Of a stretch of 37,949 nucleotides of DNA, positions 922 to 24,429 are shown in pieces. Each line of letters starts with the position of its first letter. The stretch's first letter is position 1. The stretch comes from Deltaproteobacteria bacterium. Its GTDB lineage: Bacteria > Myxococcota_A > Polyangia > Polyangiales > Polyangiaceae. Under the pieces are notes generated by a model. It did no database searches and had not been told where the DNA came from. It saw only the letters and a list, made by a program, of their open reading frames with translations. The DNA lies in NCBI GenBank assembly GCA_016875405.1, contig VGRJ01000038.1:1-37949 (forward strand), read 5' to 3'. Position numbers and translations under genes: made by a program.

Positions 922-2274
922 TCATCCCGAGCCGAGGGTCTCCTCGAACGCGAAGACGCGGCCCGTTGGCGGACCGACCAGCTCCCCGTCTCGCATCGCG
1001 ATCCGGCCGCGAAGAAGCGCAGCCACGGGGAACCCTACGACCTCCATTCCATCGAAGGGGGTCCACCCGCAGGCCGAACGCATCATCGCGTGCGTCAAGT
1101 GCACGCGCCGCTTGAGATCCACGACCGTGATGTCAGCATCCGCTCCGACGGCGATGCGTCCCTTTCGAGCGATGCCGTAGACGCGCGCCGGCCCACTCGC
1201 CACGAGCTCGACCAGCCGAGACAACGACAGACGGCCCTCGTGGACGTGGGTCAGCATCACCGGCAAGAGGGTCTGTACGCCCGGCATGCCGGAAGGAGAC
1301 GCCGGGTATGGGCGAGCCTTTTCCTCGCGCGTGTGGGGGGCGTGGTCGGAGCCGATGACATCGACGAGACCGACGCGCACGGCGTGCCAGAGGGCCTCGC
1401 GGTGGCGCGCCTCCCGGATGGGCGGGTTCATCTGCGCCAGCGTGCCGAGGGTCTCGTAACAGCCCGGCGCGCTCAGCGTGAGATGTTGTGGCGTGACCTC
1501 GAACGTTGCGAGGTCACGATGCTCTTCGAGCAGGTCCAGCTCCTCGGCCGTGGTCACGTGGAGGATGTGCACACGGCGACCGAAGCGCCGGGCGACGCGC
1601 AGGCATCGTTCGGTCGCGCGCTCTGCGCTGCGCTCGTCGCGCCACACCGGATGAGCCTCAACGCGGGTCCCGGGTGCCTCGACGAGGTGACGCCGCGCGC
1701 GCAGACGGGCCTCATCCTCTGCGTGAACGGCGACCCGCCGCCGGCCGTGGCGCATCACGTCGGTGAGCGCCGCCTCGTCGTCCACGAGCAGGCTGCCGGT
1801 CGAGCTCCCCATGAACAGCTTGACTCCGGCACAACCCGGCAGGCGCTCGAGCGAGGCGAGCGCCTCGGCGTTCGCCTCGGTCGCACCGACGAAGAACGCG
1901 ATGTCGGTCGACGCGCGACCGGGGACCCGTGCGAGCTTGTCGGCGAGGGCTTCGGGTGAGGTGGTCGGCGGCACCGTGTTGGGCATCTCGAGCACGGTCG
2001 TGACACCCCCAAGGAGCGCCGCCGCCGTCCCCGATGCGATCGTCTCCTTGTGCTCCAGACCGGGCTCGCGAAAGTGAACCTGTGAGTCGATGATGCCGGG
2101 CAGCACGTGCAGCCCGTGAGCATCGAACCTCTCCGCGGCGACCCTGCCGCTCAAGGGCCCGAGCTCGGCGATCCTTCCGTCTCGAACGCCGAGGTCCGTC
2201 TCGAGCGCGCCCCAGGGCGTGACGCACGTGCCTCCGGTCACGACGAGGTCGAAGTCTCGCGAAGCGGGTCTCAC
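922..2274 (-). CDS. pyrC: Dihydroorotase-family amidohydrolase (PyrC/PyrQ-like paralogue)
   Basis: This 450-residue class I dihydroorotase catalyses cyclisation of carbamoyl-aspartate to dihydroorotate in de novo pyrimidine synthesis. The metal-site motifs are IDSQVHFREPG (63-72), K152 in GVKLFMGSSTG (carbamylated Lys), H184 in VAVHAEDE, H239 in HILHVTT and D310 in IGSDHAPH. The normal first HxH histidine is Gln65 here, so one ligand of the alpha zinc is missing. The GTG start overlaps the TGA of cobW1 (GTGA, 2271-2274), so the two are translationally coupled. Pseudomonas PyrQ/PyrC2 is a Zur-controlled dihydroorotase paralogue; linkage to CobW and the box at 3298 suggests the same role here: pyrimidine synthesis when zinc is scarce. 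It might instead be the only housekeeping dihydroorotase, or an allantoinase/hydantoinase relative. Confidence 0.88.
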   Translation of the reverse strand: MRPASRDFDLVVTGGTCVTPWGALETDLGVRDGRIAELGPLSGRVAAERFDAHGLHVLPGIIDSQVHFREPGLEHKETIASGTAAALLGGVTTVLEMPNTVPPTTSPEALADKLARVPGRASTDIAFFVGATEANAEALASLERLPGCAGVKLFMGSSTGSLLVDDEAALTDVMRHGRRRVAVHAEDEARLRARRHLVEAPGTRVEAHPVWRDERSAERATERCLRVARRFGRRVHILHVTTAEELDLLEEHRDLATFEVTPQHLTLSAPGCYETLGTLAQMNPPIREARHREALWHAVRVGLVDVIGSDHAPHTREEKARPYPASPSGMPGVQTLLPVMLTHVHEGRLSLSRLVELVASGPARVYGIARKGRIAVGADADITVVDLKRRVHLTHAMMRSACGWTPFDGMEVVGFPVAALLRGRIAMRDGELVGPPTGRVFAFEETLGSG

Positions 2275-3275
2275 GAGCTGGCCTCAACAGGTTGTCGTGC
2301 GGTTGCGCCGACCCGTGCCGCCGGCGCGTTCAGCAGCCCGTCCAAACTCGAGCGAAGCTGCTCAACGAGCGCGACCGGCATCCCGCGGGTGATGACCATG
2401 ACGCGAGACGACCGGTCCTCGCTCGGCCAACGCGGCATCGGGTAGGTCGGGTAGACGACGTGCTGAACTGCTTGCACGACGACCGGCCCATGCTCGTCTT
2501 CTACACGCAGCAGGCCCTTCACGCGGAGCAGGGTCTCGCCATGGAACTGGCTCACCATCGAGAGCCAGTGCGCGACCGAGCGAAAGTCGACGGCGCGATC
2601 CGCGCGCACGGAGAACGACCGAACCTCGTCGCTGCCATGGGATGGGCCCGAGCTCGCGACGTCGAGCCGCGACGAGACGGTGGACGGCGTCCACTCGAGA
2701 ATCGGTCGCCAATCGAGGACGCCGCGTTCGGCCAAGAAGAGTCGCGCCTGCGGGTTCAGCTCTCGCGCCGCCGCGCGTGCGGCGCAGAGCGCGCGCTCGC
2801 CAACGATGTCCACCTTGGTGATGACGAGGTCATCGGCGAGGAGTACCTGCTTCTTCGCCTCATCGTGACGCCCCAGGGTCGTCGGGGCGTGCTCGCCGTC
2901 GACCGCGGTCACGACGGCGTCGAGGTGGTAAAGCCGTGCCAGCTCCGGGTGACGCACGAGCGTCGCGACGATCGGGGTCGGATCTGCGAGCCCCGTCGTC
3001 TCGATAAAGACGCGGTCGAAGCGCGCCTCAACGCCCGATTGCGCGAGCAGCGCGTCCACGAGGTCTCCCCGCATCGAGCAACAGACGCAGCCGGAGTCGA
3101 GGAGCAGCACGTCCTCGCGCACCTCCTTGACCAGCAGATGGTCTAGCGGCACCGCCCCGAGCTCGTTCACCACGACCAGGGCGCGCGCGAGCATCGGCCC
3201 CCGCAGCGCATGATTCAGCAGCGTCGTCTTGCCCGAGCCGAGGAACCCGGTGAGGATGGTGATCGGGACCGTCAT
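2271..3275 (-). CDS. COG0523 CobW/ZigA-type GTPase metallochaperone (cobW1)
   Basis: This 334-residue G3E GTPase has Walker A GFLGSGKTT (10-18), VNELG near 36-40, the metal-binding CVCC (63-66), ETTGLADP (92-99) and the guanine-specificity motif TKVD (153-156), plus a C-terminal CobW_C domain (about 215-320). COG0523 proteins deliver metals to client enzymes with GTP-dependent metal release; subfamilies linked to Zur serve zinc-starved cells. The ATG at 3275 was chosen because the open frame upstream runs through the operator box at 3298-3315; the box ends 22 bp before this start. It is the first gene of a two-gene operon with the dihydroorotase, which makes that enzyme a candidate client. 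It is diverged from cobW2 at 23089, which is longer. Confidence 0.92.
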   Translation of the reverse strand: MTVPITILTGFLGSGKTTLLNHALRGPMLARALVVVNELGAVPLDHLLVKEVREDVLLLDSGCVCCSMRGDLVDALLAQSGVEARFDRVFIETTGLADPTPIVATLVRHPELARLYHLDAVVTAVDGEHAPTTLGRHDEAKKQVLLADDLVITKVDIVGERALCAARAAARELNPQARLFLAERGVLDWRPILEWTPSTVSSRLDVASSGPSHGSDEVRSFSVRADRAVDFRSVAHWLSMVSQFHGETLLRVKGLLRVEDEHGPVVVQAVQHVVYPTYPMPRWPSEDRSSRVMVITRGMPVALVEQLRSSLDGLLNAPAARVGATARQPVEASS

Positions 3276-3297: not shown

Positions 3298-3315
3298 ATG
3301 CAACTCGGTTGCAAG
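3298..3315. promoter_or_regulatory. Zur-like box 3 in divergent cobW1/orf155 promoter
   Basis: ATGCAACTCGGTTGCAAG is near-palindromic (TGCAAC-TCG-GTTGCA). It is almost exactly central between the divergent start codons at 3275 (leftward) and 3345 (rightward), only 69 bp apart, so one bound dimer should silence both operons. It is the best full-length consensus of the five sites together with 14054-14071. Confidence 0.7.
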
Positions 3316-3344: not shown

Positions 3345-3812
3345 ATGAAAGTCCCTCTCGAACCGTCATCGACCGCCCCGAATCGAACTTCGGGAGTCTA
3401 CCTGAACGTCGGCCCGGTCGACGAGCGCGAAGGTGGGCGTGTCGTTCGTGCCGGCGTGCTGGCGCTCGCGGATGGCCTGGTGGCGCCGCGCTCCTTCTGG
3501 GAGCTGCTCCAGGTGCTCGCTGTTCGCGCCGAGTGGCTGCGCGCGACATTCGCGCTCACGAGCACGCAAACGTGCTTCGGCGTCGCGCGCTCCGACGGTG
3601 TATCGCCCGTCGCAGGACTCCGGGGCACGTTGCAGTCGACGCCGCGACCGACGTTGCTCGTCGCCGGTAAGAACCTCGTTTCCGAGGAGACGCTCGAGTC
3701 GGACCTTGCGGCGTGCTTCTCGACGGCCCTCGGACTGCGCGACGACGATCCGTTCCCTCACCGGCAACCGGGAGATCGTTGGCTCTCCTTCTTCTGGGAG
3801 CGCGCATGCTGA
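3345..3812 (+). CDS. Unrecognised 155-residue protein, first gene of metal-regulated operon
   Basis: I do not recognise this family. The product is soluble-looking, with no signal peptide or membrane helix. Visible blocks are GVYLNVGPVD (N-terminal strand), SFWELLQVLAVRAEWL (helix), TLLVAGKNLVSEETL (strand-turn-helix) and a tail with PGDRWLSFFWERAC. It has three cysteines: one in TQTCFGV, one in AACFST and the last residue. The ATG at 3345 is 29 bp from the operator box, and the stop overlaps the DUF1826 start (3806) by 7 bp, so it is translationally coupled to a known zinc-associated family. Position and coupling argue strongly that it is a real member of the system; its function is open. 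Confidence 0.72.
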   Translation: MKVPLEPSSTAPNRTSGVYLNVGPVDEREGGRVVRAGVLALADGLVAPRSFWELLQVLAVRAEWLRATFALTSTQTCFGVARSDGVSPVAGLRGTLQSTPRPTLLVAGKNLVSEETLESDLAACFSTALGLRDDDPFPHRQPGDRWLSFFWERAC

Positions 3813-4462
3813 GCACGCAGACTCGTAACCTGTCGACCCTCCGGCGAGCCGACGCGGAGGCGGAGGCCAGCGAGCGACTCGCGCACGGCGAGGTCAACCT
3901 CGTGTCGTGGCATCGCGAGCTTCCTCTTGGCCTCGACGCGCAGCTCGTGGAATGGGCGGAGCGCTTTCCCGCCAAGTTCGACGAGGTGGTGGCCATGCCG
4001 AACTACGATCTCTCGGCGGCCACACGCGGTCTCGCCGAGCCGGCGCGTACGTGGCTGACGTTGGACGTCGCCGGCCTCATCGCCCGTCTTTCGCTCCTCG
4101 CGGACGCTCGCCGCTTGCGGGTCTCGCTCGGCGCAGTCCGTACGGACCAATGCCGCAAGTTCCACGTCGACTACGTTCGATACCGTCTCATCACGACGTA
4201 CGTGGGGCCCGGTACGGAGTGGGTCCCCGACGCAGCGGTACGTCGCGAAGCGCTCGACCATCCACCGGACTGTCCGTGCGATGCGAACAAGGAGATCGTC
4301 CAAGATGCCTCTGCGATCCGTCATGCGGTGCCGGGCGAGGTCATCGTGATGAAGGGCGCCCTTCATCGGAACCATCACGGCGCGGTTCACCGCTCGCCGC
4401 CGATCGAGGGCACCGGCCGAGTCCGCGTCGTGCTGGTCGCGACCACGGTTGACCGCTCGTGA
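3806..4462 (+). CDS. DUF1826 family protein
   Basis: This 218-residue protein has the typical DUF1826 core: CRKFHVDYVRYRL (116-128), TYVGPGTEWV, DANKEIV, then PGEVIVMKGA and AVHRSPPI (193-200). The family has no proven activity; it is repeatedly found beside COG0523 GTPases and in Zur regulons. I see an HxD pair (H120, D122) followed about 75 residues later by H195 and R197, an arrangement like the Fe(II) facial triad plus Arg of 2-oxoglutarate oxygenases; this is an inference. Cys156 and Cys158 (CPC) could also bind metal. The start ATG lies inside the end of the preceding gene and the stop overlaps the next GTG (GTGA), so it is central in a tightly coupled operon. Confidence 0.85.
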   Translation: MLSTQTRNLSTLRRADAEAEASERLAHGEVNLVSWHRELPLGLDAQLVEWAERFPAKFDEVVAMPNYDLSAATRGLAEPARTWLTLDVAGLIARLSLLADARRLRVSLGAVRTDQCRKFHVDYVRYRLITTYVGPGTEWVPDAAVRREALDHPPDCPCDANKEIVQDASAIRHAVPGEVIVMKGALHRNHHGAVHRSPPIEGTGRVRVVLVATTVDRS

Positions 4463-4842
4463 GCGCTCCTCATCATCTGTTCGTATGCACGTCGTGCCGG
4501 CAGACGGGTGAAGGTAAGGAGCCTCGCGAGCTGCGCGCGGGTGCACGGCTCTTTCGCAACCTGAGCGAGCGCTTCGCGAGCTGGGCCCGGCGCGAAGGCT
4601 TCGTGATCCTACCGACCGAGTGCCTGAGCGTCTGCCCGCGCCCGTGTGGCATCGCTATGCGAGCGCCGGGAAAGTTTACGTACGTCTTCGGCGACCTCAA
4701 ACCAGGGGAGGCCGAAAGCGCCGTCATCGAGTGCGCGGCGCTTTACCGCCGAGCCCCTACCGGTTTCCTCCCGAGGGAAGACCGTCCGCACGTGCTGCGC
4801 GCCGGCATTCTCTGTCGCGTCCCTCCGCTGGAGAGCCCATGA
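4459..4842 (+). CDS. DUF1636 (COG5469) predicted metal-binding ferredoxin-like protein
   Basis: This 127-residue protein has a CX2C at 10-13 (VCTSCR) and a second cluster C55-X3-C59-X3-C63 (TECLSVCPRPC), the hallmark of DUF1636, which resembles thioredoxin-fold [2Fe-2S] ferredoxins. The middle GKFTYVFGDL is the conserved strand of the family. The GTG start overlaps the DUF1826 stop by 4 bp, and the stop overlaps the next ATG (4839). DUF1636 commonly accompanies CobW-type and cobalt/zinc genes, so it fits a role as a small metal-binding or electron-carrying partner. No partner can be named from sequence alone. Confidence 0.85.
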   Translation: MSAPHHLFVCTSCRQTGEGKEPRELRAGARLFRNLSERFASWARREGFVILPTECLSVCPRPCGIAMRAPGKFTYVFGDLKPGEAESAVIECAALYRRAPTGFLPREDRPHVLRAGILCRVPPLESP

Positions 4843-5472
4843 CCGGCCTGTCGGTGCTGCTCCTCGGGATCGGGCTCGGTCTTCGCCACGCCACCGACGC
4901 CGACCACGTGCTCGTCGTCTCCGCGCTCGTTCAGCGAGAGCCCGGGGTGTTGAGGGCGCCCGCATCGCGGCGCTCTGGGGCGCTGGGCACACCGTCGCGT
5001 TCCTCGCGTTTGGGCTGCTCATCGTGCTCGCCGAGGTGCGCATCCCCGAAGCCTTCGAGCGAGGAGCGGAGCTGCTCGTAGCACTGATGCTCGTTGGCTT
5101 CGGCATCTGGCACCTCGTGCGAAGTCGCGGGATCAACGGCGGCGCGGTTCAGCCCTTGGTAGCCAGCGCGTCGACGCGACCGCTGGCGCTCGGCCTGGTT
5201 CTCGGGCTCGCGGGCTCGGCCGGGATCGCGCTGCTCGCAGCAACCACGGTCGGCTCGCGTCTGCTCGCAGTCGTGTACCTGGGGCTCGTTGCGCTCGGGA
5301 CCGTCATCGGTATGGTCGCCCTGACCGTCTTGATGTCGCGCCCCATCAGCTGGACGATGCGCCGAGAGGGGCGTCTGCGAAGCGCCATCACCGTGCTCGC
5401 CGCGATGCTCAGCATCGGCTTGGGGCTCGCGGTGTTGCTGCGAGTGGCGGCCTCGGGGGGGGGGCGCCATGA
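4839..5472 (+). pseudogene. NiCoT/UreH-type metal permease, frameshifted twice
   Basis: The gene starts at ATG 4839 (overlapping the previous TGA). It encodes GLGLRHATDADHV, containing the nickel/cobalt-transporter signature H17-X4-D22-H23, then leaves frame after QREPGV. The homologous reading resumes one frame away with EGARIAALWGAGHTVAF and continues through about five more hydrophobic helices to [14 protein letters not shown] single missing base near the G run at 4946-4951 explains the first break. At 5455-5464 a run of ten G is again one base short: with one more G the gene would end at a TGA overlapping the ATG of the next gene (5469-5472), like every other junction in this operon. Both breaks therefore look like homopolymer errors or very recent mutations. 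Likely role: inner-membrane divalent metal (Ni, Co or Zn) uptake. Confidence 0.75.
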
Positions 5473-5951
5473 TCCTGTCCGATCGCGACCTTCGTCAGAG
5501 GCTGCGCGACCGTTGCATCGTCGTCGAGCCGCTCGCCGATCTCGAGCTCCAGCTTCAGCCCGCCAGCATCGACCTGCGTCTGGGCCGCCAGTTGCGGCGC
5601 GCGGTCAGGGCCTCCGAGGACGTCGAGGAGCTCTCCGAGGGCGTCGACTTTGTCCTGGGTCCGGGCGAGTTTGCGCTCGGGACGACGCTCGAGCGCGTGC
5701 ACGTTCCAAATGACCTCGTCGCTCGCGTCGAGGGTCGCAGCAGCATCGGCCGGCTCGCGATCCTGGTTCACGCCACCGCTGGTTTCATCGACCCCGGGTT
5801 CGAGGGCGAGAGTACCCTCGAGCTCTCGAACCTCGGGCCGACGCCAGCGTCCCTGCGGGTCGGGTCCCGCATCTGACAATTCGCCTATCGCATGCTGACG
5901 AGCCCCGTCGGGCGCCCCTACGGTCCGGCGCGCGGGAGCAAGCATTCGTCC
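5469..5951 (+). pseudogene. dcd: dCTP deaminase, interrupted by a TGA codon at 5874
   Basis: The open part encodes 135 residues with [12 protein letters not shown] at the N-terminus, [29 protein letters not shown] and [14 protein letters not shown] (catalytic Glu region) of trimeric dCTP deaminase (dCTP to dUTP, supplying dTMP synthesis). Normal length is about 185. The stop (5874-5876) falls in RI*QFAYRML, where homologues read KICQL or KIGQL; translation in the same frame restores SPVGRPYGPARGSKH, the nucleotide-gripping C-terminal segment. It is thus a single nonsense change (TGC, TGG or GGA to TGA), real or an error. If real, the lid is lost. dCTP deaminase needs no zinc, unlike cytidine and dCMP deaminases, so its place in a zinc-type operon makes sense. 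Confidence 0.8.
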
Positions 5952-6346
5952 CCGCGGTTCGGACCACGCGGCGTCGGCTCCACCCTTGCCACCGGTGCTA
6001 CGTCGACGGTCGCGATAGCTCCGGAGCCCGCGCCGCGTCGGTCAGGGAGTGAACAAGACGTCGCATGGCGCGCCGTGACTCCCGCGCACACTTCGCGACT
6101 GTGATGTCATGGGTGGCGCAGCATCGAGCCGCCGCTACGCTCTCGCCCGGAACGGAACAGGCGCGAATCATGAGTGATGGGACGCGACGGGCTCCTCGAC
6201 GCGAACGTCGATGCGTGCGTGGCACAGGCCTTGCTGGCCTTGGCGCTGTCGTGCCACAACCGGTGAACTTCCGCACTTTGATCACCTCGTTCTTCGGCTC
6301 GCCTCGATGCAATCCTTCTTCGCTCGTGAGGCCCAAACGAATCGCG
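5952..6346. other. Gap without a recognisable gene
   Basis: The first part is the degraded end of the dcd frame (stop at 6102-6104). From 6105 to 6346 I see no convincing gene; the frame running into the next lipoprotein upstream of 6347 is rich in Arg and lacks a signal sequence. The promoter of the lipoprotein gene should lie here, but no clear -35/-10 pair stands out. Confidence 0.4.
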
Positions 6347-14053: not shown

Positions 14054-14071
14054 ATGCAACTTGGTTGCAAG
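14054..14071. promoter_or_regulatory. Zur-like box 4, upstream of the TonB-dependent receptor
   Basis: ATGCAACTTGGTTGCAAG differs from box 3 at a single base (17 of 18 identical). It lies 360 bp before the chosen receptor start. The stretch 14072-14431 contains no gene that I recognise, so either the leader is long or an undetected small gene or RNA lies between box and receptor. Confidence 0.65.
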
Positions 14072-14431: not shown

Positions 14432-17005
14432 ATGCTACCGAGGTGCGGCGCAGGCTTTCAGCGTTGCGCCGTGGTCTGCGTCTGTGTGCTCTACGCACAG
14501 TCCGCGTGGGCGCAGGAGCCGCCGCCGCCGGCATCCGGTGAATCGAGCGCGCCCGTTGCTGAACCGGTCGCCGTCTCACCACCACGGGCCGTTTTGTCGA
14601 CCGAGGCTGCGTACCCCCCGGAAGCTTTGACTGCCCGCCGCGAAGCGCGCGTCGAGGTCTTGGTCACGGTGCTCGCCAATGGGAGCGTCGGCGAAGTTTC
14701 GGTTGCCATCTCGGGCGGGCAAGCGTTCGACGACGCAGCTGTCGCGGCGGTCCGCCTGTGGCGCTTCGAGCCCGCTCGGCGGGGCGAGCAGGCTATCGAC
14801 AGCCGCATCAGAGTCCCGTTCCAGTTCACGCTTCCTCGAGCTGATTCCGTTCCTGCTCCCCCTCCCTCGACAGAGGATGCCGGGCCTCGTGCCGACCAGT
14901 CGCCGGCGGCCGTGGCGACAATTGATGTGACGGTTCGAGGAGAGAGGCAGAGCCGAACGGAGGACCGCAGCGTCAGCGACTTCCGGATAGAGCGTGACGT
15001 CATCGTGGCGGCCCCCCGTCAGGAGGGTGCGGACGTTCTCCGTGCTGCTCCGGGCCTGTACATCGGCCGCGCCGAAGGCCCTGCCGTGGCGCACAACTAC
15101 ATGCTGCGAGGATTCGATGCGGACCATGGCCAGGACATCGAGTTCCGTGTGGGCGGGCTTCCGATCAACATGCCGTCGCACATCCACGGCCAGGGCTATT
15201 CGGACCTCGGATTTCTCATCGGCGACACCATTCGAGAGCTGCGAGTCACGGAGGGCGTCTACGACCCGCGCCAAGGAGACTTCGCGGTTGCTGGCTCCAT
15301 CGACCTGCGGCTCGGAGTAGAGGAACGTGACCGTGGCGTGAGGCTGCGGTCTGGCTACGGCTCGTGGAACACCTTCCGCCAGCTCGTACTGTGGGCCCCG
15401 CGCGAGGCACCCGAGGAAACTTTCGGCGCGGTCCAATACATGCGGACCGATGGCTTTGGTGAGAACCGTGCTGGGCAAAGCGGCAGCGGCATCTTCCAGC
15501 ACCGCTTCGGCGACGGTGAACTGACCTTCCGCGCGATCGGCATACTGCACGCCGCCCGTTCCGACCTCGCGGGCGTCGTTCGGCAAGACGACGTCGACTC
15601 GGGTCGAGTGTGCTTCACCTGCGTCTATCCGTATCCCACAGCCCAGGCGCAAAACGCGCTGGCAAATCGCTTCCTGGCCGGGCTCTTCGCCGACTATTCC
15701 GGAAGCGATGGGGCGAACGGCCAGGCTGGCCTCTGGCTCGGCTACGACAACCTTCGCATCCAGGAGAACTTCACCGGCTTTCTGCAGCAGTCTCGAGTGC
15801 TCGAGCGCGTCGGGGGTCGCGGCGACCTGATCGAGCAGCAGAACCGCACCTTCTCCCTGGGCCTGACGGGCCGCTATCGCACTTCGCCCTTTCGTCCCGC
15901 GTCCGGGGCGCATGGCACGGTCGAGGTGGGTGCAGACGGACGCCTCGATGTCATCGATCAGGCGCAGAACCTCCTCGATGCATCGGTGCGCAACCAGACG
16001 TGGGACCGCAGGGTGGACGCGAGCATCCGAGGCGTGGACCTTGGCCTTTGGGGAGACCTTGACTGGACGTTCACCAAGTACGTGAGAGTTCGGGCAGGCC
16101 TCCGTGCCGATGTTCTCTCCTACGACGTCGAAGATCGGTTAGGGAACTTCGCGCCGCTCGTAAGGCCTCAGGGCAGCTTCATCCCAGGTTTTCGTCGGAG
16201 CGCGCTCGGGCTCGCCTGGGGGCCGCGAACCAGCGTCAAGGTAAAGCCCTCCGAGTGGCTGTCGATCTTGGCCGCCTATGGCGAGGGGTACCGTTCGCCG
16301 CAGGCTCGCCTCTTGGAGGACGGAGAAGAGGCTCCCTTCTCGAAGGTCAGGTCCGCCGACTTCGGCCTTCGCTTTAACTGGGGTGACCCGCTTCGTCTTA
16401 CGGTTGGCGGTTTCTATACTCACTTGTCCGACGACGTTGCGTTCGACGCCGCGGAGGGAAGGCTCGAGAGAATCGGCGCGACGCAGCGGCTCGGCGCGGT
16501 CGCTCACGCGGTCACCCGTCCGCTCCGCTGGCTGGTGGGATCGCTGTCCTTCACGTTCGTCGACGCCACGCTGCTGGAGCCACCGCCTCCGTCGGCCGAG
16601 GAACCACAGCCCCCCTTCGTCGAGGGGCAGAATCTGCCCTTCGTCCCCCCCATCGTCATCCGCGCCGATCTCGGTGCGCGGCACACGTTCATCGAGCGCC
16701 TCGGTGGGCAGCCGTTCGGCGGGCGGTCTGGGCTTGGATTCTCGTTCCTTTCCCCGAGGCCTCTGCCCTACGGAGACCTCGCAGACCCCGTGGCCTTGCT
16801 CGACGCATCTGCCGCGCTCTCATGGGGCCCGATCGAGCTGGCATTCGAGCTCTTCAATGCTCTGAACTCGCGCTACGCCGCCGTTGAGTACTCTTTCCCC
16901 TCCGACTGGGATCCCAACGACGGCGTCCGTCCGCGTACACCAGCGCGGCACACCGCAGCCGGCGCGCCGCTGTCTTGGATGTTGTCACTGGGGGTGACGC
17001 TATGA
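14432..17005 (+). CDS. TonB-dependent outer-membrane receptor with N-terminal TonB-like domain
   Basis: With the start at 14432 the product has 857 residues: a signal peptide ending SAWAQ (about 28), a TonB C-terminal-type domain (about 50-134: AAYPPEALTARREARVEV ... AAVRLWRFEPARRG), a Pro linker, a plug (about 180-295, with EGADVLRAAPGLY, YMLRGFDADHGQDIEFRV, HIHGQGYSDL) and a 22-strand-type barrel. The barrel ends GAPLSWMLSLGVTL, close to the usual aromatic-terminated last strand. Upstream Met codons (from 14321) give no signal peptide. It should import a metal or metallophore across the outer membrane, powered by ExbBD-TonB (19324-21386). The plug His residues (H250, H252) could touch the cargo. 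Box 4 and the rest of the regulon suggest zinc; iron, nickel or cobalt are possible. Its stop overlaps the next ATG. Confidence 0.88.
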   Translation: MLPRCGAGFQRCAVVCVCVLYAQSAWAQEPPPPASGESSAPVAEPVAVSPPRAVLSTEAAYPPEALTARREARVEVLVTVLANGSVGEVSVAISGGQAFDDAAVAAVRLWRFEPARRGEQAIDSRIRVPFQFTLPRADSVPAPPPSTEDAGPRADQSPAAVATIDVTVRGERQSRTEDRSVSDFRIERDVIVAAPRQEGADVLRAAPGLYIGRAEGPAVAHNYMLRGFDADHGQDIEFRVGGLPINMPSHIHGQGYSDLGFLIGDTIRELRVTEGVYDPRQGDFAVAGSIDLRLGVEERDRGVRLRSGYGSWNTFRQLVLWAPREAPEETFGAVQYMRTDGFGENRAGQSGSGIFQHRFGDGELTFRAIGILHAARSDLAGVVRQDDVDSGRVCFTCVYPYPTAQAQNALANRFLAGLFADYSGSDGANGQAGLWLGYDNLRIQENFTGFLQQSRVLERVGGRGDLIEQQNRTFSLGLTGRYRTSPFRPASGAHGTVEVGADGRLDVIDQAQNLLDASVRNQTWDRRVDASIRGVDLGLWGDLDWTFTKYVRVRAGLRADVLSYDVEDRLGNFAPLVRPQGSFIPGFRRSALGLAWGPRTSVKVKPSEWLSILAAYGEGYRSPQARLLEDGEEAPFSKVRSADFGLRFNWGDPLRLTVGGFYTHLSDDVAFDAAEGRLERIGATQRLGAVAHAVTRPLRWLVGSLSFTFVDATLLEPPPPSAEEPQPPFVEGQNLPFVPPIVIRADLGARHTFIERLGGQPFGGRSGLGFSFLSPRPLPYGDLADPVALLDASAALSWGPIELAFELFNALNSRYAAVEYSFPSDWDPNDGVRPRTPARHTAAGAPLSWMLSLGVTL

Positions 17006-17868
17006 GGAGACGCGCACTCGCGTTGATCACGGTCGTTGCTGCAGGCTGTGCCGAGACCGGACAAGATCGCATCAGCGTTCCGCTGTTCGTTGCGGGAGCC
17101 AACGTGACCGAACCGGTCGTCGCGGCGTTTGACGTACCGCTCACCATCGAGCGCGCCGACCTCGCCTTTGGACCGCTGTATCTCTGCGCCGGAGCAACCG
17201 CGGGAGACCTCTGCGACACGGCTCGCCTCGAATGGCTCGAGACGGTCGTCGTCGATACGACGCTCGATGAGCCAGCGCGCGCAGGGGAGCTATCGGGCGT
17301 CACCGGCATGGTCCGCTCGTGGATGTACGACCTCGGCATCAGCTCCCAGCTGACCGGAACGCAGCCCTTCATCCTCGATGCAGCAAGCCAGCTTGGCGGC
17401 GCGTCTTTGGTCCTGGAGGGGCGAGTTGTCGTCGATGGCATCGAGGTTCCCTTCACCGCCTCGGTGCCGATCCAGCAGACCGATGAGACCGAGATCGGCG
17501 TGCCGGTGGTGCGCAAGAGCACCTCCGAATCGTTCTTCCGAGACGTCGACTCTGATGAGTCCGGTCTATTGCTGCGATTCGATCCGTCAGCATGGGTGCG
17601 AGGCATCGACTTCCGTCCGTACGTGTCCCGCGAGACCTGCACCAGCGGCGGACCGACCATCGCTTGCGACGGTGGGCTCGAACGCACCTGCGACGGCGAA
17701 ACCGAGCTGTCGACCCGTGACTGCACCGCGATGGGCCACGTGTGCATTCCACAAGCAGGCTGCCGAGAGCGGCTCACTATTGACGACCGAAGCGAGGCGT
17801 ACCGCAGCTTGCGGAACGCTCTCGTGAGCGGATGGCGACCTTCTTTCAACTGGGACTACGTCCCGTAA
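17002..17868 (+). CDS. Cys-rich lipoprotein coupled to the receptor
   Basis: The 288-residue product begins MRRRALALITVVAAGCAE with lipobox AAGC (Cys16). The central part is beta-like and negatively charged. A Cys cluster near 215-260 (ETCTSGG, IACDGG, RTCDGE, RDCTAMGHVC, QAGC) resembles a small disulphide-knotted module. The ATG overlaps the receptor stop (ATGA), so receptor and lipoprotein are made together. I do not know the family. By analogy with TonB receptors that work with a surface lipoprotein, it may capture the cargo for the receptor; this is inference from gene order. Confidence 0.75.
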   Translation: MRRRALALITVVAAGCAETGQDRISVPLFVAGANVTEPVVAAFDVPLTIERADLAFGPLYLCAGATAGDLCDTARLEWLETVVVDTTLDEPARAGELSGVTGMVRSWMYDLGISSQLTGTQPFILDAASQLGGASLVLEGRVVVDGIEVPFTASVPIQQTDETEIGVPVVRKSTSESFFRDVDSDESGLLLRFDPSAWVRGIDFRPYVSRETCTSGGPTIACDGGLERTCDGETELSTRDCTAMGHVCIPQAGCRERLTIDDRSEAYRSLRNALVSGWRPSFNWDYVP

Positions 17869-17901
17869 CCGACCCCTCGGGGTAACAACAAGGAGTTAGA
17901 A

Positions 17902-18909
17902 ATGGCAAAGCGGAAACTCAATTTGACCTCATGGAATCGCGCTGTCGGAGCAATGATCTGCCTCGGCACGTTCGCCGGGGGGTGTGGCAGCGAAGACGAG
18001 GCCGGGACGGGCTCTCTGACCGTGCTTGTCGAGTCGGAGGATGTCATCGTCGAGGGAATCGCGCCGGGAGACGATGTCGAAAATATCCGTGATGGCTGGG
18101 GTGTAAAGTTTGACAAGTACATTGCCACCATCGGCGATATTGATGTGCACTACTCTACGAATGATTCTTTGGCGGCGGAAGCGGGTGACGTCTTCGTCGT
18201 CGACCTGACGAAGGTTCCGTCTGGGGGGCTCGCACTCTGGACTCTTGGGGGTCTCAATGCGGGTCGGTGGGAGTTCAACTATCGGACGCCTGGTGCTGCT
18301 GACGGCTCGACGCGACACGACAGCGTCTCGCAGGCGGACTACGACGAGATGGTCGCCGAGGACTGGACTTACCACATCGACGGTCTGCTCCAGAAAGCCG
18401 ACGGTCAATCCTGCCCGCCGGCGGCGCTTGCGAAGCCCGGAGGCAAGACGCCCAACGGCAAGATGTCAGGCGGCAATGCGTGTTACGATGCGCCGAGCGT
18501 CCGCTTTACTTTCGGTGCTACTGCCGAAACGAACTTTGGTCCGTGTGAGATCGACGAGGTGCCTGGCTTTGCAATCTCCGCTGGGGGAACTCAGACGGTC
18601 GCAGCGACGATCCACGGGGATCATCTCTTCTTCAATGGGTTCCCTGAGGGCGACGAAGGCGGCGTCACTCGGCTGGCCCAGTGGCTCGCGGACTGTGACC
18701 TGAACCTCGACGGAACGGTTACCGGAGCGGAGCTCAAGGAGATCGCTCCGTCGCAGCTACCGGAGCTTGACGAGAGGTACCAGCTCGGCGGGTCGCCCAT
18801 CACGCCTCTCAATAACATGTTCGACTACGTGGTCGGCCAGCTCAAGACCCAGGGGCACTTCCAGGGCGAGGGGGAGTGTCCGTTGGACGGGGTCGGGCAT
18901 CACGATTGA
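17902..18909 (+). CDS. Lipoprotein with His motif and EF-hand-like loop, putative metal binder
   Basis: The 335-residue product has lipobox AGGC (Cys28), so it is probably a lipoprotein. It contains TYHIDG (H158), IHGDHLFF (H238, D240, H241) and DLNLDGTVTGAEL (266-278), which fits a calcium-type EF-hand loop. The tail ends in His-His-Asp. An AAGGAG ribosome site lies 7 bp before ATG 17902, and the gap to the previous gene is 33 bp, so it belongs to the receptor operon. Composition and context suggest a surface metal-binding partner of the receptor. The downstream 414-bp gap separates it from exbB. Confidence 0.75.
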   Translation: MAKRKLNLTSWNRAVGAMICLGTFAGGCGSEDEAGTGSLTVLVESEDVIVEGIAPGDDVENIRDGWGVKFDKYIATIGDIDVHYSTNDSLAAEAGDVFVVDLTKVPSGGLALWTLGGLNAGRWEFNYRTPGAADGSTRHDSVSQADYDEMVAEDWTYHIDGLLQKADGQSCPPAALAKPGGKTPNGKMSGGNACYDAPSVRFTFGATAETNFGPCEIDEVPGFAISAGGTQTVAATIHGDHLFFNGFPEGDEGGVTRLAQWLADCDLNLDGTVTGAELKEIAPSQLPELDERYQLGGSPITPLNNMFDYVVGQLKTQGHFQGEGECPLDGVGHHD

Positions 18910-19323
18910 GCCGAGCAGATCCGTGCGGCCATAGGCGCTCGTTACGGGTCATTCGCTTCGCCGCCTGCCAGGTACGGGGCTCTCGCTGTTTTCGCGCAGC
19001 CAATCTGAAAGATTCGCTCGGGCGAACAGGACCCCCGTACACGAATATCGCCGTTACAGCTTTGTTACGATGATGTTCTACGCGGAACTCGCCCTCCTCT
19101 CCTAGGGGCGGGCGGGTCCGCGCTCGACGACCAGCTGGGTGCTCTGCCGTGGGCTTCGCGGGCCACGGCGTACTCCGTCGTCCCCGCGGGCGAGGAGCTC
19201 GAATGCGCTGAGTTTCTTCAGTTGCCGCTCGCCGCCTTTCAGAACATCCTGCGTCGCCGCTGGCGCCAAGGGGACGAAGCTCTTGTGCGCGGCGAAGGCC
19301 TAGTCTGCTTGGAGTCATGAGTC
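18910..19323. other. Gap holding a possible degraded reading frame
   Basis: From 19009 to the TGA at 19318-19320 one frame is open and reads protein-like (ALDDQLGALPWASRATAYSV, LQLPLAAFQNILRRRW), yet it has no ATG, GTG or TTG start. It ends 3 bp before the exbB GTG. It may be the 3' remnant of a gene once coupled to exbB. I saw no TGCAAC box here, so whether exbB-exbD-tonB is transcribed from the receptor promoter or its own is unclear. Confidence 0.35.
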
Positions 19324-20064
19324 GTGAACACGGTTGAGTCCATCAAGCATCTTTTCCTCGCGGCCGGGGCGGGATGGGTGTTGTGGCTCCTCGCTTCGTT
19401 GTCGGTCGCGAGTCTCGCCATCGCGCTCGAGCGCTGGTTTTTCTACCGTCGCGCAGCCGGGAGCCTGCACGAGCTGGCGGCGGGACTTCATGAGCAGCTT
19501 GCGGCGCACGGGGAATTCAAGGCGGCCCAGTGGCTCGACGCTTCGAACACGGTCGCGGCGCGGGTTGCGGCGGCGGGGTTGCGGCTCGCCGAACGAGGGC
19601 CCGGTGCCGCGAGCAAAGCGATGATGAGCCGCACCGCTCTCGAGCGCGAGGACCTGGACCGTCGCCTCGCGTTCTTGGGAACGCTCGGCAACAACGCGCC
19701 GTTCATCGGTCTGTTCGGAACGGTCATCGGAGTCATCCAGGCGTTTGAGGAGCTGGGGCACAGCGCCGCCGGGCACGCCGGGGTCGGCGCGACGAGTCAG
19801 GTTGCGTCAGGTGCTGTGATGTCGGCGATCGCCGAGGCGCTGGTCGCAACGGCAGTAGGGATCGCCGTCGCGCTCCCAGCCGTCGCTGCCTACAATTACC
19901 TGCAGCGTCGTGTGGAGCATGTGCTCGCGGGTGTTGAGGTGCTGTCGAATTTGGTCCTTGCGTATTTGGAAGGCGACGAGCTGGCAGCTCCGCCCGAGAG
20001 CGCCGACCGCGAACCTGAACGGAGCCCCGCCGCACCGATTGTGTCGGTGGTTGCGAGGCGCTGA
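19324..20064 (+). CDS. exbB: ExbB/TolQ/MotA-family proton channel protein
   Basis: This 246-residue protein has three membrane helices: near 14-34 (GWVLWLLASLSVASLAIAL), near 118-140 (LGTLGNNAPFIGLFGTVIGV) and near 165-195 (ALVATAVGIAVALPAVAAYN). The GNNAPFIGLFGTVIGVI block is the classic ExbB/TolQ signature. With ExbD it forms the inner-membrane proton channel energising TonB. The start is GTG at 19324, since the ATG at 19316 is in another frame and quickly stops. It is followed at 3 bp by exbD. Its partner receptor is probably the one at 14432. Confidence 0.92.
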   Translation: MNTVESIKHLFLAAGAGWVLWLLASLSVASLAIALERWFFYRRAAGSLHELAAGLHEQLAAHGEFKAAQWLDASNTVAARVAAAGLRLAERGPGAASKAMMSRTALEREDLDRRLAFLGTLGNNAPFIGLFGTVIGVIQAFEELGHSAAGHAGVGATSQVASGAVMSAIAEALVATAVGIAVALPAVAAYNYLQRRVEHVLAGVEVLSNLVLAYLEGDELAAPPESADREPERSPAAPIVSVVARR

Positions 20065-20067
20065 ATC

Positions 20068-20496
20068 GTGGCGGGAGGCACCAACAGCCGGCGGGGGATC
20101 ATCGCAGGAATCAACGTGACGCCGCTCGTCGACATCACGTTGGTCCTGCTGGTCGTCTTCATCGTGACCGCGAAGATCGTGGTCGCTCCGGCGGTCCCAT
20201 TGGATCTTCCGCGCGCGAGTCAAGGCCAGGAGGTGCAGGTCATCTTCTCGGTCTTGCTCCCGCGAGACGGCCGCCTACTCGTCAACGGCACGCCCACGGC
20301 GAACGTCGCGGCCCTCGAGGAACGAGCCCGCTCTGCGCTCGGGGGGAACAGCGAGCTCAGGGCCGTGATCCAAGCGGATGGAGCCGTGCCACACCGCGAG
20401 GTGGTTTCCGTGCTCGATACGCTGAAGCGCGCCGGGGTCACGCGTATTGCTTTCGGGGCGCTGCCAGACGCGACGCTTGGGGTGAAAGCCGAGTGA
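20068..20496 (+). CDS. exbD: ExbD/TolR-family biopolymer transport protein
   Basis: This 142-residue protein has a short cytoplasmic N-terminus, then INVTPLVDITLVLLVVFIV, with the conserved Asp (D26) in the single membrane helix that carries protons, and a periplasmic ExbD/TolR domain ending in LDTLKRAGVTRIAFG. The GTG start is 3 bp after exbB; the stop overlaps the tonB GTG (20493) as GTGA. It works with ExbB and TonB. Confidence 0.92.
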   Translation: MAGGTNSRRGIIAGINVTPLVDITLVLLVVFIVTAKIVVAPAVPLDLPRASQGQEVQVIFSVLLPRDGRLLVNGTPTANVAALEERARSALGGNSELRAVIQADGAVPHREVVSVLDTLKRAGVTRIAFGALPDATLGVKAE

Positions 20497-21386
20497 AGGC
20501 CGCGCGACGGACGAAGGTGCGCCGGAGTGCGGCAGCGCTGTTCGACACCGTCCTGGGCGATCGCCGTTCCGAACCGCGTCTTCCGCGATGGGGGGTTCAT
20601 TCGGCGGCTTGGGCTCTCGCGCTCGGGCTGCATCTCGCTCTCTGGGCGACGGCCAACCGCGCGGAGCCCTCCCTCGAAACCTGGAGCGCTCGAATGGCCG
20701 CCCTGATCCACGAGGATCTTGTCGCGCGGGCGCCCGTCGCAATCGAGGAGCCACCACCGCCGGAACCAGAACCACAGCCAGAGCCCGTCGCCGCGCGAGA
20801 GCCACCGCCTCATTCCGAGCGCGCGCCGCAGCGCGAGCTTCGGGCATCAAGCCGACCGGAGACGCCGCTCACCCCGCGCGCCACGCCTCCGGGGCAAGTC
20901 GCGCCGCCGGCGGAATCGGGACGCATCATTGCGGAAGAAGCCGAGCTCACCGGCCCGGTTGACCTGACCGACAACACCTTCGTCATGGGCACCGCGAGCG
21001 CCTACGTCGGAGGCGCGAGCGCCAGCGGCGGTACGAATCGAGAACCCGTGCCGCGAGGTCTTGTCGCTCAAGACGCAGCACCAACGGCCACGCGAGGCCG
21101 CCCCTCTCTCTCGCGTCCCGTTCAGCTGGACGGAAGTGAATGGCGCTGCGACTGGCCCGCGTCCGCCGTCGCACAGGACATCTACCAGCAGTTCGTAGTG
21201 TTGCGCGTCGTGGTGCGGGCGGATGGCTCCGTCGAGCGAGCGACGCTCTTGAGCGATCCGGGGCATGGCTTCGGCTCGGCGGCGGTCGGGTGTGCTCGTC
21301 ACACGCGCTTCTCGCCAGCGCGAGATGCAGGCGGCGAAGCCATCCGCGCCACGTCGCCTCCCATCCGAGTGAGGTTCACACGATGA
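20493..21386 (+). CDS. tonB: TonB energy-transducing protein
   Basis: This 297-residue protein has one N-terminal membrane helix (near 33-52, HSAAWALALGLHLALWATA), a long Pro/Glu/Arg-rich periplasm-spanning region (EEPPPPEPEPQPEP near 85-98) and a TonB C-terminal domain (about 215-297: VVLRVVVRADGSVERATL ... RFSPARDAGG). Two cysteines (CDWP and GCARH) flank the domain, as in other myxobacterial TonB proteins, and may form a disulphide. It overlaps exbD by 4 bp and the next lipoprotein by 4 bp (ATGA). It delivers the proton-motive force to outer-membrane receptors. Confidence 0.9.
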   Translation: MKAARRTKVRRSAAALFDTVLGDRRSEPRLPRWGVHSAAWALALGLHLALWATANRAEPSLETWSARMAALIHEDLVARAPVAIEEPPPPEPEPQPEPVAAREPPPHSERAPQRELRASSRPETPLTPRATPPGQVAPPAESGRIIAEEAELTGPVDLTDNTFVMGTASAYVGGASASGGTNREPVPRGLVAQDAAPTATRGRPSLSRPVQLDGSEWRCDWPASAVAQDIYQQFVVLRVVVRADGSVERATLLSDPGHGFGSAAVGCARHTRFSPARDAGGEAIRATSPPIRVRFTR

Positions 21387-21783: not shown

Positions 21784-22716
21784 TCATCCGAGGGCGACGT
21801 GACCATGGCCTTCTTCGCACCGCTGCACCTCGATGGTGAGATGCGTGAGCTCGAAGCGCCCCAGCGCCTGCCGGTAGCGCCGCGTATCCTGGGGAGCTGC
21901 TGTCACCAGAGTGACGACGCAGCTCTTCTTGCCACCACCCAGCGACCACACATGGAGGTCCCTGACCCGAACGTCGTCGAGCGCCTCGAGCACCACCCGG
22001 ATTTCGTCTTCGACGGCTGACGACAGGGACACGTCGAGCAACTCGTACGCGGCGCTACGCGAGAGCCCTACGCCCCACTTGAGGATCACGAAGCCCCCGA
22101 CGATCCCCGAGACCGCGTCGAGCCAGGCCCAGCCGAGAAACCGACCGGCGAGCAGCGCCGCGATCGCGAGAACGCTGGTGAACGCGTCCGCGACGACGTG
22201 CATGAACGCCGCGCGGTGGTTGTGATCGTGCTCGCCGTCATGGTCGTCGTCGTCGTCGTCGTCGTGCGAGTGCAGCAGGAAGACGCTCACGAGGTTCACG
22301 ACGAGGCCCAGCACCGCGACCGGGAGGGAGCTCACGAAGTCAATCGCGTGGGGACGCAGGAGCCGCTCCACCGATTCAACCACCATGGCGATGGCGACCA
22401 GTCCGAGCGCTACTGCGCTGGTGTAGCCCGCGAGCGCGCGTACCTTGCCGGTACCGAAGGCGAAGGCTCGATGCCCCGCGAAGCGTCGAGAGACCCAGTA
22501 TGCGACGCTCGCGAGCCCGAGCGCTCCGACGTGCGTGGCCATGTGCCAGCCGTCGGCCAGCAGGGCCATCGAGTGCGTCGCGTACCCGACCACGATTTCG
22601 ACGCCCATCATCGCCGCGGTCAACAACACGACCAACTGAACCCCGCGCTCTCGTCGCCGTGGGGACGGCACCTGTCGCGCGGCGCAACTCTCGGGTGTCG
22701 CGAGCTGGTCGTGCAT
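21784..22716 (-). CDS. Cation diffusion facilitator, DmeF-like metal exporter
   Basis: This 310-residue CDF transporter has six membrane helices. Helix 2 carries SMALLADGWHMATH (D55, H58) as in DmeF-type Co/Ni/Zn exporters, helix 5 carries H173-VVA-D177, and the cytosolic loop between helices 4 and 5 is extremely His/Asp-rich (HSHDDDDDDDHDGEHDHNH, 149-167). The C-terminal domain (about 230-305) has DLHVWSLGGGKKSCVV, the usual dimer and metal-sensing domain. It exports divalent metals in exchange for protons. It starts 6 bp after the RcnR/CsoR-like gene and is surely co-transcribed with it; the operator at 23004 should control both. Confidence 0.9.
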   Translation of the reverse strand: MHDQLATPESCAARQVPSPRRRERGVQLVVLLTAAMMGVEIVVGYATHSMALLADGWHMATHVGALGLASVAYWVSRRFAGHRAFAFGTGKVRALAGYTSAVALGLVAIAMVVESVERLLRPHAIDFVSSLPVAVLGLVVNLVSVFLLHSHDDDDDDDHDGEHDHNHRAAFMHVVADAFTSVLAIAALLAGRFLGWAWLDAVSGIVGGFVILKWGVGLSRSAAYELLDVSLSSAVEDEIRVVLEALDDVRVRDLHVWSLGGGKKSCVVTLVTAAPQDTRRYRQALGRFELTHLTIEVQRCEEGHGHVALG

Positions 22717-23033: not shown

Positions 23034-23050
23034 TTGCAACAGAGTTGCAA
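23034..23050. promoter_or_regulatory. Zur-like box 5, before cobW2
   Basis: TTGCAACAGAGTTGCAA is a perfect 7-3-7 palindrome, the most symmetric of the five sites. It lies 38 bp before the cobW2 ATG (23089). Together with the 12-bp distance to the CsoR-type operator, this puts two metal sensors on one 93-bp divergent promoter. Confidence 0.7.
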
Positions 23051-23088: not shown

Positions 23089-24429
23089 ATGAAAAAGATC
23101 CCCGTCACTGTGCTCACCGGCTTCCTCGGCTCTGGGAAGACCACCCTGCTCAACCGAATCCTCACCGAGAACCACGGCAAGCGCATCGCCGTCATCGAGA
23201 ACGAGTTCGGCGAGATCGGGATCGATCAGGCCCTCGTCATCAACGCCGACGAAGAGGTCTTCGAGATGAACAACGGCTGCATCTGCTGCACCGTTCGCGG
23301 AGACCTCATCCGCATTCTCGGTAACCTCATGAAGCGTCGCGACAAGTTCGATCACATCCTGGTCGAGACCACGGGGATGGCGGACCCCGGACCCGTCGCA
23401 CAGACCTTCTTCGTCGACGACGACCTTCGCGATCTCTTCTCGCTGGACGGCATCGTCACTCTTGTCGACGCCAAACACGTTCACCTGCACCTCGAGGACT
23501 CGAGCGAGTGCAAGGAGCAGATCGCCTTCGCCGACGTGCTCGTGCTCAACAAGACCGATCTCGTGAGCGAGCACGAGCTCGAACAACTCGAGCGACGGGT
23601 GACGAGCATGAACTCGATGGCGAAGGTGCTGCGTGCCCAGAACGCGAACGTGCCGATCCCTGCGGTCCTCGACGTCGGCGGGTTCGATCTCGGGCGTGCC
23701 GTCGCCACGAAGCCCACGTTCCTCGAGCCGGAGTATCCCTTCGAGTGGGCGGGAACCTTCGAGGTCGAGGAGAGCGTGTACGAGGTCGCACTCGAGGACG
23801 GTCCCGACCCGAGCATGGACTTGGTCGTGAAGTACCTGGAGAGCGACGAGCAAGCGGAGACGCGCGCTGCGGCCGAACGCGCCGTACGCACCTGGTCGGA
23901 GCCGGTGCTCACGGTCGCACCGGCGGGCCGGATCGAGATCGGGGCGAGCAGGCCCGTGAGGCTGCAGCTCGACGCTGCCGGCTCCAAGCGGTTCGAGCTT
24001 CGTGCGCCTCGTGGGGGGCGCATTGGCCTGTACACGCAGCACCTGCCGTCGGAGTTCGGGTTGCAGGTGCTCCGTGGGGGCATTGCGGTCCGACCGAGCG
24101 GCGAAAATGAGTTTGCCGCCGGACACACGCACGACGACCAGGTGACCTCGGTGGGCATCCACCTCGAAGGTGAGATCGACGGCGAACGCCTCAACAAGTG
24201 GGTGTCGCAGCTGCTGCGCGACAAGGGAACCGACATCTTCCGCATGAAGGGCATCCTGAACATCAAGGGCTCGCCCAGTCGGTTCGTCTTTCAGGGCGTT
24301 CATATGCTCTTCGACGGGCGCGAGGATCGGCCGTGGGGCGCGGAGCCGCGCGCCAGCGATCTCGTCTTCATCGGTCGGAAGCTCGATCGCGAGGCGCTGA
24401 CGGAAGGGTTCAAGCGATGCTTGGCGTAA
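23089..24429 (+). CDS. COG0523 CobW-type GTPase metallochaperone, long form (cobW2)
   Basis: This 446-residue G3E GTPase has GFLGSGKTT (11-19), IENEFGEIGID (37-46), CICC (64-67), ETTGMADPGP and NKTD (154-157). The stretch KHVHLHLED (His 130, 132, 134) is an extra potential metal site. Compared with cobW1 it has an insert of about 120 residues before the CobW_C domain, containing GHTHDDQV. The C-terminal domain ends with GILNIKGSPSRFVFQGVH. The ATG at 23089 has AAGG upstream; the upstream frame runs through box 5. The 3' end overlaps the WD40 gene by 13 bp. Long-form COG0523 proteins of this kind are found in zinc-starvation gene sets. Confidence 0.93.
   Translation: MKKIPVTVLTGFLGSGKTTLLNRILTENHGKRIAVIENEFGEIGIDQALVINADEEVFEMNNGCICCTVRGDLIRILGNLMKRRDKFDHILVETTGMADPGPVAQTFFVDDDLRDLFSLDGIVTLVDAKHVHLHLEDSSECKEQIAFADVLVLNKTDLVSEHELEQLERRVTSMNSMAKVLRAQNANVPIPAVLDVGGFDLGRAVATKPTFLEPEYPFEWAGTFEVEESVYEVALEDGPDPSMDLVVKYLESDEQAETRAAAERAVRTWSEPVLTVAPAGRIEIGASRPVRLQLDAAGSKRFELRAPRGGRIGLYTQHLPSEFGLQVLRGGIAVRPSGENEFAAGHTHDDQVTSVGIHLEGEIDGERLNKWVSQLLRDKGTDIFRMKGILNIKGSPSRFVFQGVHMLFDGREDRPWGAEPRASDLVFIGRKLDREALTEGFKRCLA

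Follow-up and report, generated by a model that had tools for sequence, protein, structure and literature searches.

The dCTP deaminase gene (dcd) in a 37,949-nucleotide stretch of DNA from a bacterium of the family Polyangiaceae (hereafter the window) appears, with moderate likelihood, to be a broken copy of a short-loop dcd that serves in a Zur-like regulon as a zinc-free bypass. While dCMP and cytidine deaminases are zinc-dependent, dCTP deaminase (Dcd) works without zinc.

The dcd copy of the window and its lesions

The dcd gene lies in the following neighbourhood, with L113 and L121 being the loci of two relatives:

922 to 2274, minus strand: pyrC-type dihydroorotase (profile search, alignment)
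2271 to 3275, minus strand: COG0523 (CobW/G3E) GTPase (PF02492, 1.3e-41)
3345 to 3812, plus strand: first ORF of the dcd operon, no Pfam match
3806 to 4462, plus strand: DUF1826 protein (PF08856, 8.8e-40)
4459 to 4842, plus strand: DUF1636 protein (PF07845, 6e-35; 117 of 117 positions, whole model intact)
4839 to 5470, plus strand: nicO/NiCoT-like transporter gene, frameshifted near 4950, its end overlapping the dcd start
5469 to 5876, plus strand: dcd codons 1 to 135 and TGA stop, a truncated short-loop dCTP deaminase (PF22769, TIGR02274, clade with L113 and L121)
5877 to 5942, plus strand: dcd codons 137 to 158 past the stop (QF...RPYGPARGSK), recognised by conservation in relatives and a GC3 of 0.86
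5943 to 6104, plus strand: open frame 3′ of GSK in place of the lost dcd 3′ end, without homology to the Dcd C-terminus and without coding signal

As the genes preceding dcd overlap (3806–4462, 4459–4842, 4839–5470, with dcd starting at 5469), DUF1826, DUF1636, nicO and dcd are taken to form one operon. In the product of the divergent pyrC, Gln replaces the first His of the HxH metal motif (DSQVHFREPG), and the same exchange is found in the L113 copy (DTQVHFREPG), which is 80% identical.

The 135 residues upstream of the TGA match PF22769 with an E-value of 1.4e-36 in a profile search, and the protein reaches 138 bits against the NCBIfam model TIGR02274 (cut-off 92.8). According to alignments with the dCTP deaminases of M. 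tuberculosis (2qxx) and E. coli (1xs1), the catalytic core is shared, namely Arg, Ser and Arg of the GRSS.GR motif and the catalytic Glu of the LE motif, a column in which one E. coli Dcd entry (2v9x) has Asp. Unlike these enzymes, however, the window copy has a loop between "DLRL" and "FVL" that lacks about 16 residues compared with ordinary Dcd, it stops at residue 135, and it lacks KYxGQ even past the stop.

The reading frame starts with an ATG at 5469 and is interrupted by a TGA at 5874–5876 (codon 136), with QFAYRMLTSPVGRPYGPARGSK being present in frame 3′ of it. The first-pass annotation had described exactly this arrangement, i.e., a TGA at codon 136 with PYG-x-x-x-GSK intact in the same frame downstream, and indeed GSK is reached at 5942. 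As the TGA precedes it, the C-terminal tail with its Y, K and Q, by which Dcd encloses the triphosphate, is missing from the window protein, whereas the L113 and L121 proteins retain it. If the frame is translated past the TGA, Y and K are present, but KHSSP stands where KYxGQ would be expected, and the Gln equivalent to E. coli Q182, a residue which presumably has a role in triphosphate binding, is lost. Codons 137–158 are identical to each short-loop relative at 14 of 22 positions, which compares with 13–15 of 22 between intact pairs. Directly after GSK (residue 158) Dcd similarity ends abruptly in nearly every alignment, the KYxGQxxPxxSR end of the relatives being missing, and at the nucleotide level no homologue remains similar beyond 5942 or a few bases from it. 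There, GC3 drops from 0.86 (5877–5942) to 0.67 (5943–6104) and thereby below the GC2 of the latter segment (0.74). A frameshift 3′ of GSK that would restore the tail was rejected, the other two frames from 5943 showing by eye no KYxGQ-like end, and so was a 3′ end copied from elsewhere, with 5943–6330 being unmatched among the other loci compared, which cover part of the genome. The frameshift near 4950 in nicO, directly upstream of dcd, resembles the loss of a single base close to short runs of G; the nicO homologues of L098, L077 and L034 read through this junction unbroken. The lost end, this frameshift and the shortened loop had escaped the first-pass annotation.

Judged from these sequence features, the window dcd is probably a recent pseudogene which lost its function by the TGA and the lost end after codon 158. 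With two lesions in the gene itself and a frameshifted gene preceding it, this copy probably is inactive and yields no dUMP. The first-pass annotation had also raised the question of another dcd elsewhere in the genome. No second Dcd was found in this genome (G000; 5.02 Mb, 218 contigs, 99% complete), and a search for the dUTPase family matched only the window dcd and one true dUTPase.

Among the alternatives to a recent loss of function, the main one is that errors in sequencing or assembly produced the stop, the lost end and the nicO frameshift and that the true gene is an intact zinc-regulon dcd. This appears unlikely, although not strikingly so. The draft genome consists of 218 contigs and has 2.3% contamination, the form of the nicO lesion would fit such an error, and the codons before and just past the stop are well conserved. 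Yet, three separate lesions of differing kinds (a substitution, a frameshift and a replaced 3′ end) fall inside 1 kb, while the adjoining DUF1826, DUF1636, cobW and pyrC genes are intact. Assembly errors in metagenome-assembled genomes are able to mimic one lesion.

The predicted operator and its putative signal

By comparing intergenic regions, the palindrome TGCAAC-N3-GTTGCA was found, which constitutes a box (TGCAACNNNGTTGCA) that is a candidate target of a Fur-family protein. The dcd operon is preceded by this predicted operator, which is shared with further sites in the window:

317 to 331: operator-like site, one mismatch, upstream of the MerC-like gene 455–901
408 to 422: operator-like site, one mismatch, upstream of the same MerC-like gene
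3299 to 3313: predicted operator TGCAACTCGGTTGCA, between the divergent cobW-pyrC (minus strand) and the operon leading to dcd (plus strand)
14055 to 14069: predicted operator, exact, upstream of 14594–17005 (plus strand)
23035 to 23049: predicted operator, exact, upstream of the second COG0523 gene (23089–24429)

With up to two mismatches, the window contains five palindrome sites, compared to 0.80 expected from shuffles. If a single mismatch is allowed, the palindrome occurs at nine places in the whole genome (5 Mb), of which five are inside the window, versus one for the reversed pattern. In the DUF1826 loci of the order (n = 40, 549 kb) 44 boxes were counted in 22 loci and none for the control pattern. 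Known zinc genes stand behind the same box: genes scoring over the cut-off for the ZigA zinc metallochaperone (NF038288) were found there in G000 (contig C162, where the box is exact), L113 and L117, whereas the COG0523 proteins encoded in the window itself score below this cut-off. Another exact box of G000 lies near a Fur-family gene on contig C176, whose product exceeds the cut-off of no NCBIfam equivalog and reaches 23 of 167 bits with the Zur model. Gene content and box together point to zinc as the putative signal of the box-bearing clusters, lending the link to metal more support than was available to the first-pass annotation.

It is rather improbable, even more so than an assembly error, that the regulon is Nur-like and responds to nickel or cobalt instead of zinc, with dcd having a different function there. 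A signal of this kind is favoured by nicO in the dcd operon, cbiM in the L113 cluster and the half-site spacing of the box (TTGCAA-N5-TTGCAA), which resembles that of the Streptomyces Nur (nickel) box. On the other hand, the ZigA genes behind the same box score over a curated cut-off, and in L113 a single-Cys ribosomal protein L28 adjoins zigA. Cobalt import would also be compatible with zinc starvation, as Cupriavidus starved of zinc is reported to be able to use cobalt (PMC11340326).

Several other genes adjoin boxes. Close homologues of the MerC-like membrane protein (455–901) do so in L098 and L077 as well, and this gene probably is a further member of the regulon. At 14594–21386, downstream of the exact box at 14055–14069, a long gene is followed by ORFs which by eye resemble ExbB, ExbD and TonB, making a regulated outer-membrane metal uptake unit possible. 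A cation diffusion facilitator-like gene (21784–22629, minus strand) is located near the second COG0523 gene (23089–24429, plus strand) with its exact box at 23035. Elsewhere in G000, the exact boxes of L229 (C162) and L231 (C176) are followed by the same short segment (MNALI.xPLSQLARPPALGPRRRAIDAAVARTL), which continues differently in each, and in L231 what begins like zigA goes on as another protein; these are chimeric genes, which perhaps arose when copies of the box region recombined. Finally, an exact box precedes a gene that has a haem-binding-like CxxCH motif, resembles di-haem cytochrome c peroxidase and is possibly an unexpected member of the regulon (L230, C169:2508).

Box-bearing dcd loci in relatives

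Within 93 distinct dcd loci, six exhibit a box within 3 kb upstream, i.e., the window, L113, L121, L117, L269 and one haloarchaeal locus, which looks like noise; the control pattern gave none. Three of the four other Myxococcota loci have zigA nearby, and dcd is accompanied by the same box and COG0523/ZigA, pyrC2 or DUF1636 genes in up to four other Myxococcota genomes. In L113, zigA (628 bits, cut-off 600) and dcd are divergently oriented, two boxes lie in the region that separates them, and the cluster includes the pyrC homologue downstream. L121 contains a 63% identical DUF1636, a box one gene upstream of dcd and a partial zigA. The Dcd of L117 and L269 have an ordinary loop; the former locus includes DUF1826 and zigA, with the box being located 2.9 kb upstream in a run of genes ending in dcd, and the latter has a box 257 bases away and a divergent DUF1636. 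These positions weaken the case for a dcd regulated by the box.

L113 and L121 were the two loci at which a scan of genome contigs yielded further Dcd with the shortened loop. The loop comprises 23–25 residues in the window, L113 and L121 and 38–40 in all others except one, which is a partial hit. In a Dcd tree these three form one clade with a support of 98/94 and long branches.

A dcd following DUF1826, DUF1636 and NiCoT genes in relatives, as considered in the first-pass annotation, did not prove to be a fixed arrangement. No dcd was found near DUF1826 in any of the 40 loci of the order examined, and dcd as a standard neighbour of DUF1826 was hence rejected for this order. The closest syntenic relative, L098, has the order box-DUF1826-nicO, then a membrane-protein gene instead of dcd. 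A plasmid origin was likewise discarded, the best plasmid Dcd matches being less than 60% identical and mostly haloarchaeal, streptomycete, azospirillum or enteric.

It is improbable that mere chance brought an ordinary dcd, whether housekeeping or derived from a phage, next to metal genes, and this reading ranks behind a nickel or cobalt signal. Plasmid matches indicate that dcd is mobile, most Myxococcota dcd loci have no box, and dcd was not found in the genus mates searched. Against chance, however, stand the short-loop clade, which occurs in box-bearing metal clusters in three genomes, and the box at five Myxococcota dcd loci versus none for the control pattern.

A decoding of the TGA as selenocysteine, which would give a selenocysteine-containing dCTP deaminase, is highly unlikely: although SelB (two genes above the cut-off) and a tRNA-Sec (68 bits) are encoded in the genome, both short-loop relatives have Cys at the TGA codon and codons 137–158 are still conserved, no SECIS-like stable fold was found after the TGA (folding z-scores +0.7 to +1.2), intact homologues with Ser at this codon have equally strong hairpins in the same position (L117), the residue at this column is not a catalytic thiol, as 81 of 94 aligned Dcd have Ser, and the C-terminal tail would be absent even with the TGA being read. 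The two genes exceeding the SelB cut-off are separate within this one genome (L019 on C85, L020 on C12).

A proposed zinc-free route to dUMP

According to the proposed mechanism, some Myxococcota would have placed an ancestral short-loop dcd under a Zur-like (Fur-family) operator, together with COG0523/ZigA, pyrC2, DUF1826 and DUF1636. Under zinc shortage the repressor would dissociate from the operator, allowing dcd to be expressed. Dcd would then convert dCTP to dUTP, from which dUMP would be formed via dUTPase, and this route would bypass the zinc-requiring dCMP deaminase and sustain dTMP synthesis. In the genome of the window the function would have been lost through the TGA at codon 136 and the absence of the end beyond codon 158, with nicO being frameshifted just upstream.

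The dCMP deaminase of the ComEB type also leads from deoxycytidine nucleotides to dUMP, but has an unrelated fold and depends on zinc. In G000 a ComEB-like enzyme with HAE and PCxxC zinc motifs is encoded away from the window (C48), the genome of L113 (G489) contains a ComEB-like deaminase, too, and related zinc deaminases are present in the genomes of L117 and L121. Overall, dCMP-type zinc deaminases were found in G000, G489, G490 and G491, and dUTPase in five of five genomes searched. As the genomes checked keep both enzymes, a zinc-free bypass to dUMP seems to be the best and simplest reading of the short-loop clade. The bypass may be non-essential, since dUMP can also be made via reduction of UDP and dUTPase, a route that likewise spares zinc at the deamination step. 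We give about even chances to the wider idea that a dedicated short-loop Dcd clade serves zinc starvation in Myxococcota, with a non-homologous zinc-free enzyme replacing dCMP deaminase at a different step, and that recruitment to the regulon happened once for the clade and, in the case of ordinary Dcd, perhaps on two further occasions (L117, L269).

The role as a zinc-sparing route to dTMP that the first-pass annotation had assigned to dcd thus stands in part: dcd recurs in a zinc-type regulon (box, COG0523/ZigA, pyrC2 or DUF1636) in genomes that also encode a zinc deaminase, but the window copy carries two lesions behind a frameshifted gene. Zur-linked COG0523, PyrC paralogues and DUF1826 were described previously (Haas et al., 2009; PMC2770081). 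With the Zur-regulated zinc-sparing sets reported there (COG0523/YciC, PyrC paralogue, FolE2, DksA2, Cam, HisI) the clusters have COG0523, a PyrC paralogue with changed metal ligand and DUF1826 in common. However, neither a deaminase nor dcd is mentioned in that study, and dcd would not be a zinc-free paralogue of the zinc enzyme but a bypass by a non-homologous one. In agreement with the first-pass annotation, which knew of no dcd in such a regulon, the open-access literature searched yielded no link of dcd to zinc limitation, zinc homeostasis or a Zur regulon, which is weak evidence of novelty.

For the window itself the lesson is modest, the local dcd copy being probably dead. Known zinc-sparing sets mostly exchange a zinc enzyme for a zinc-free paralogue. 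If dcd is truly under the same switch, thymidylate supply would be one zinc bottleneck, which could be relieved by a different reaction. This gives a testable prediction for bacteria with intact copies, as well as an operator motif by which the regulon could be mapped in Myxococcota.
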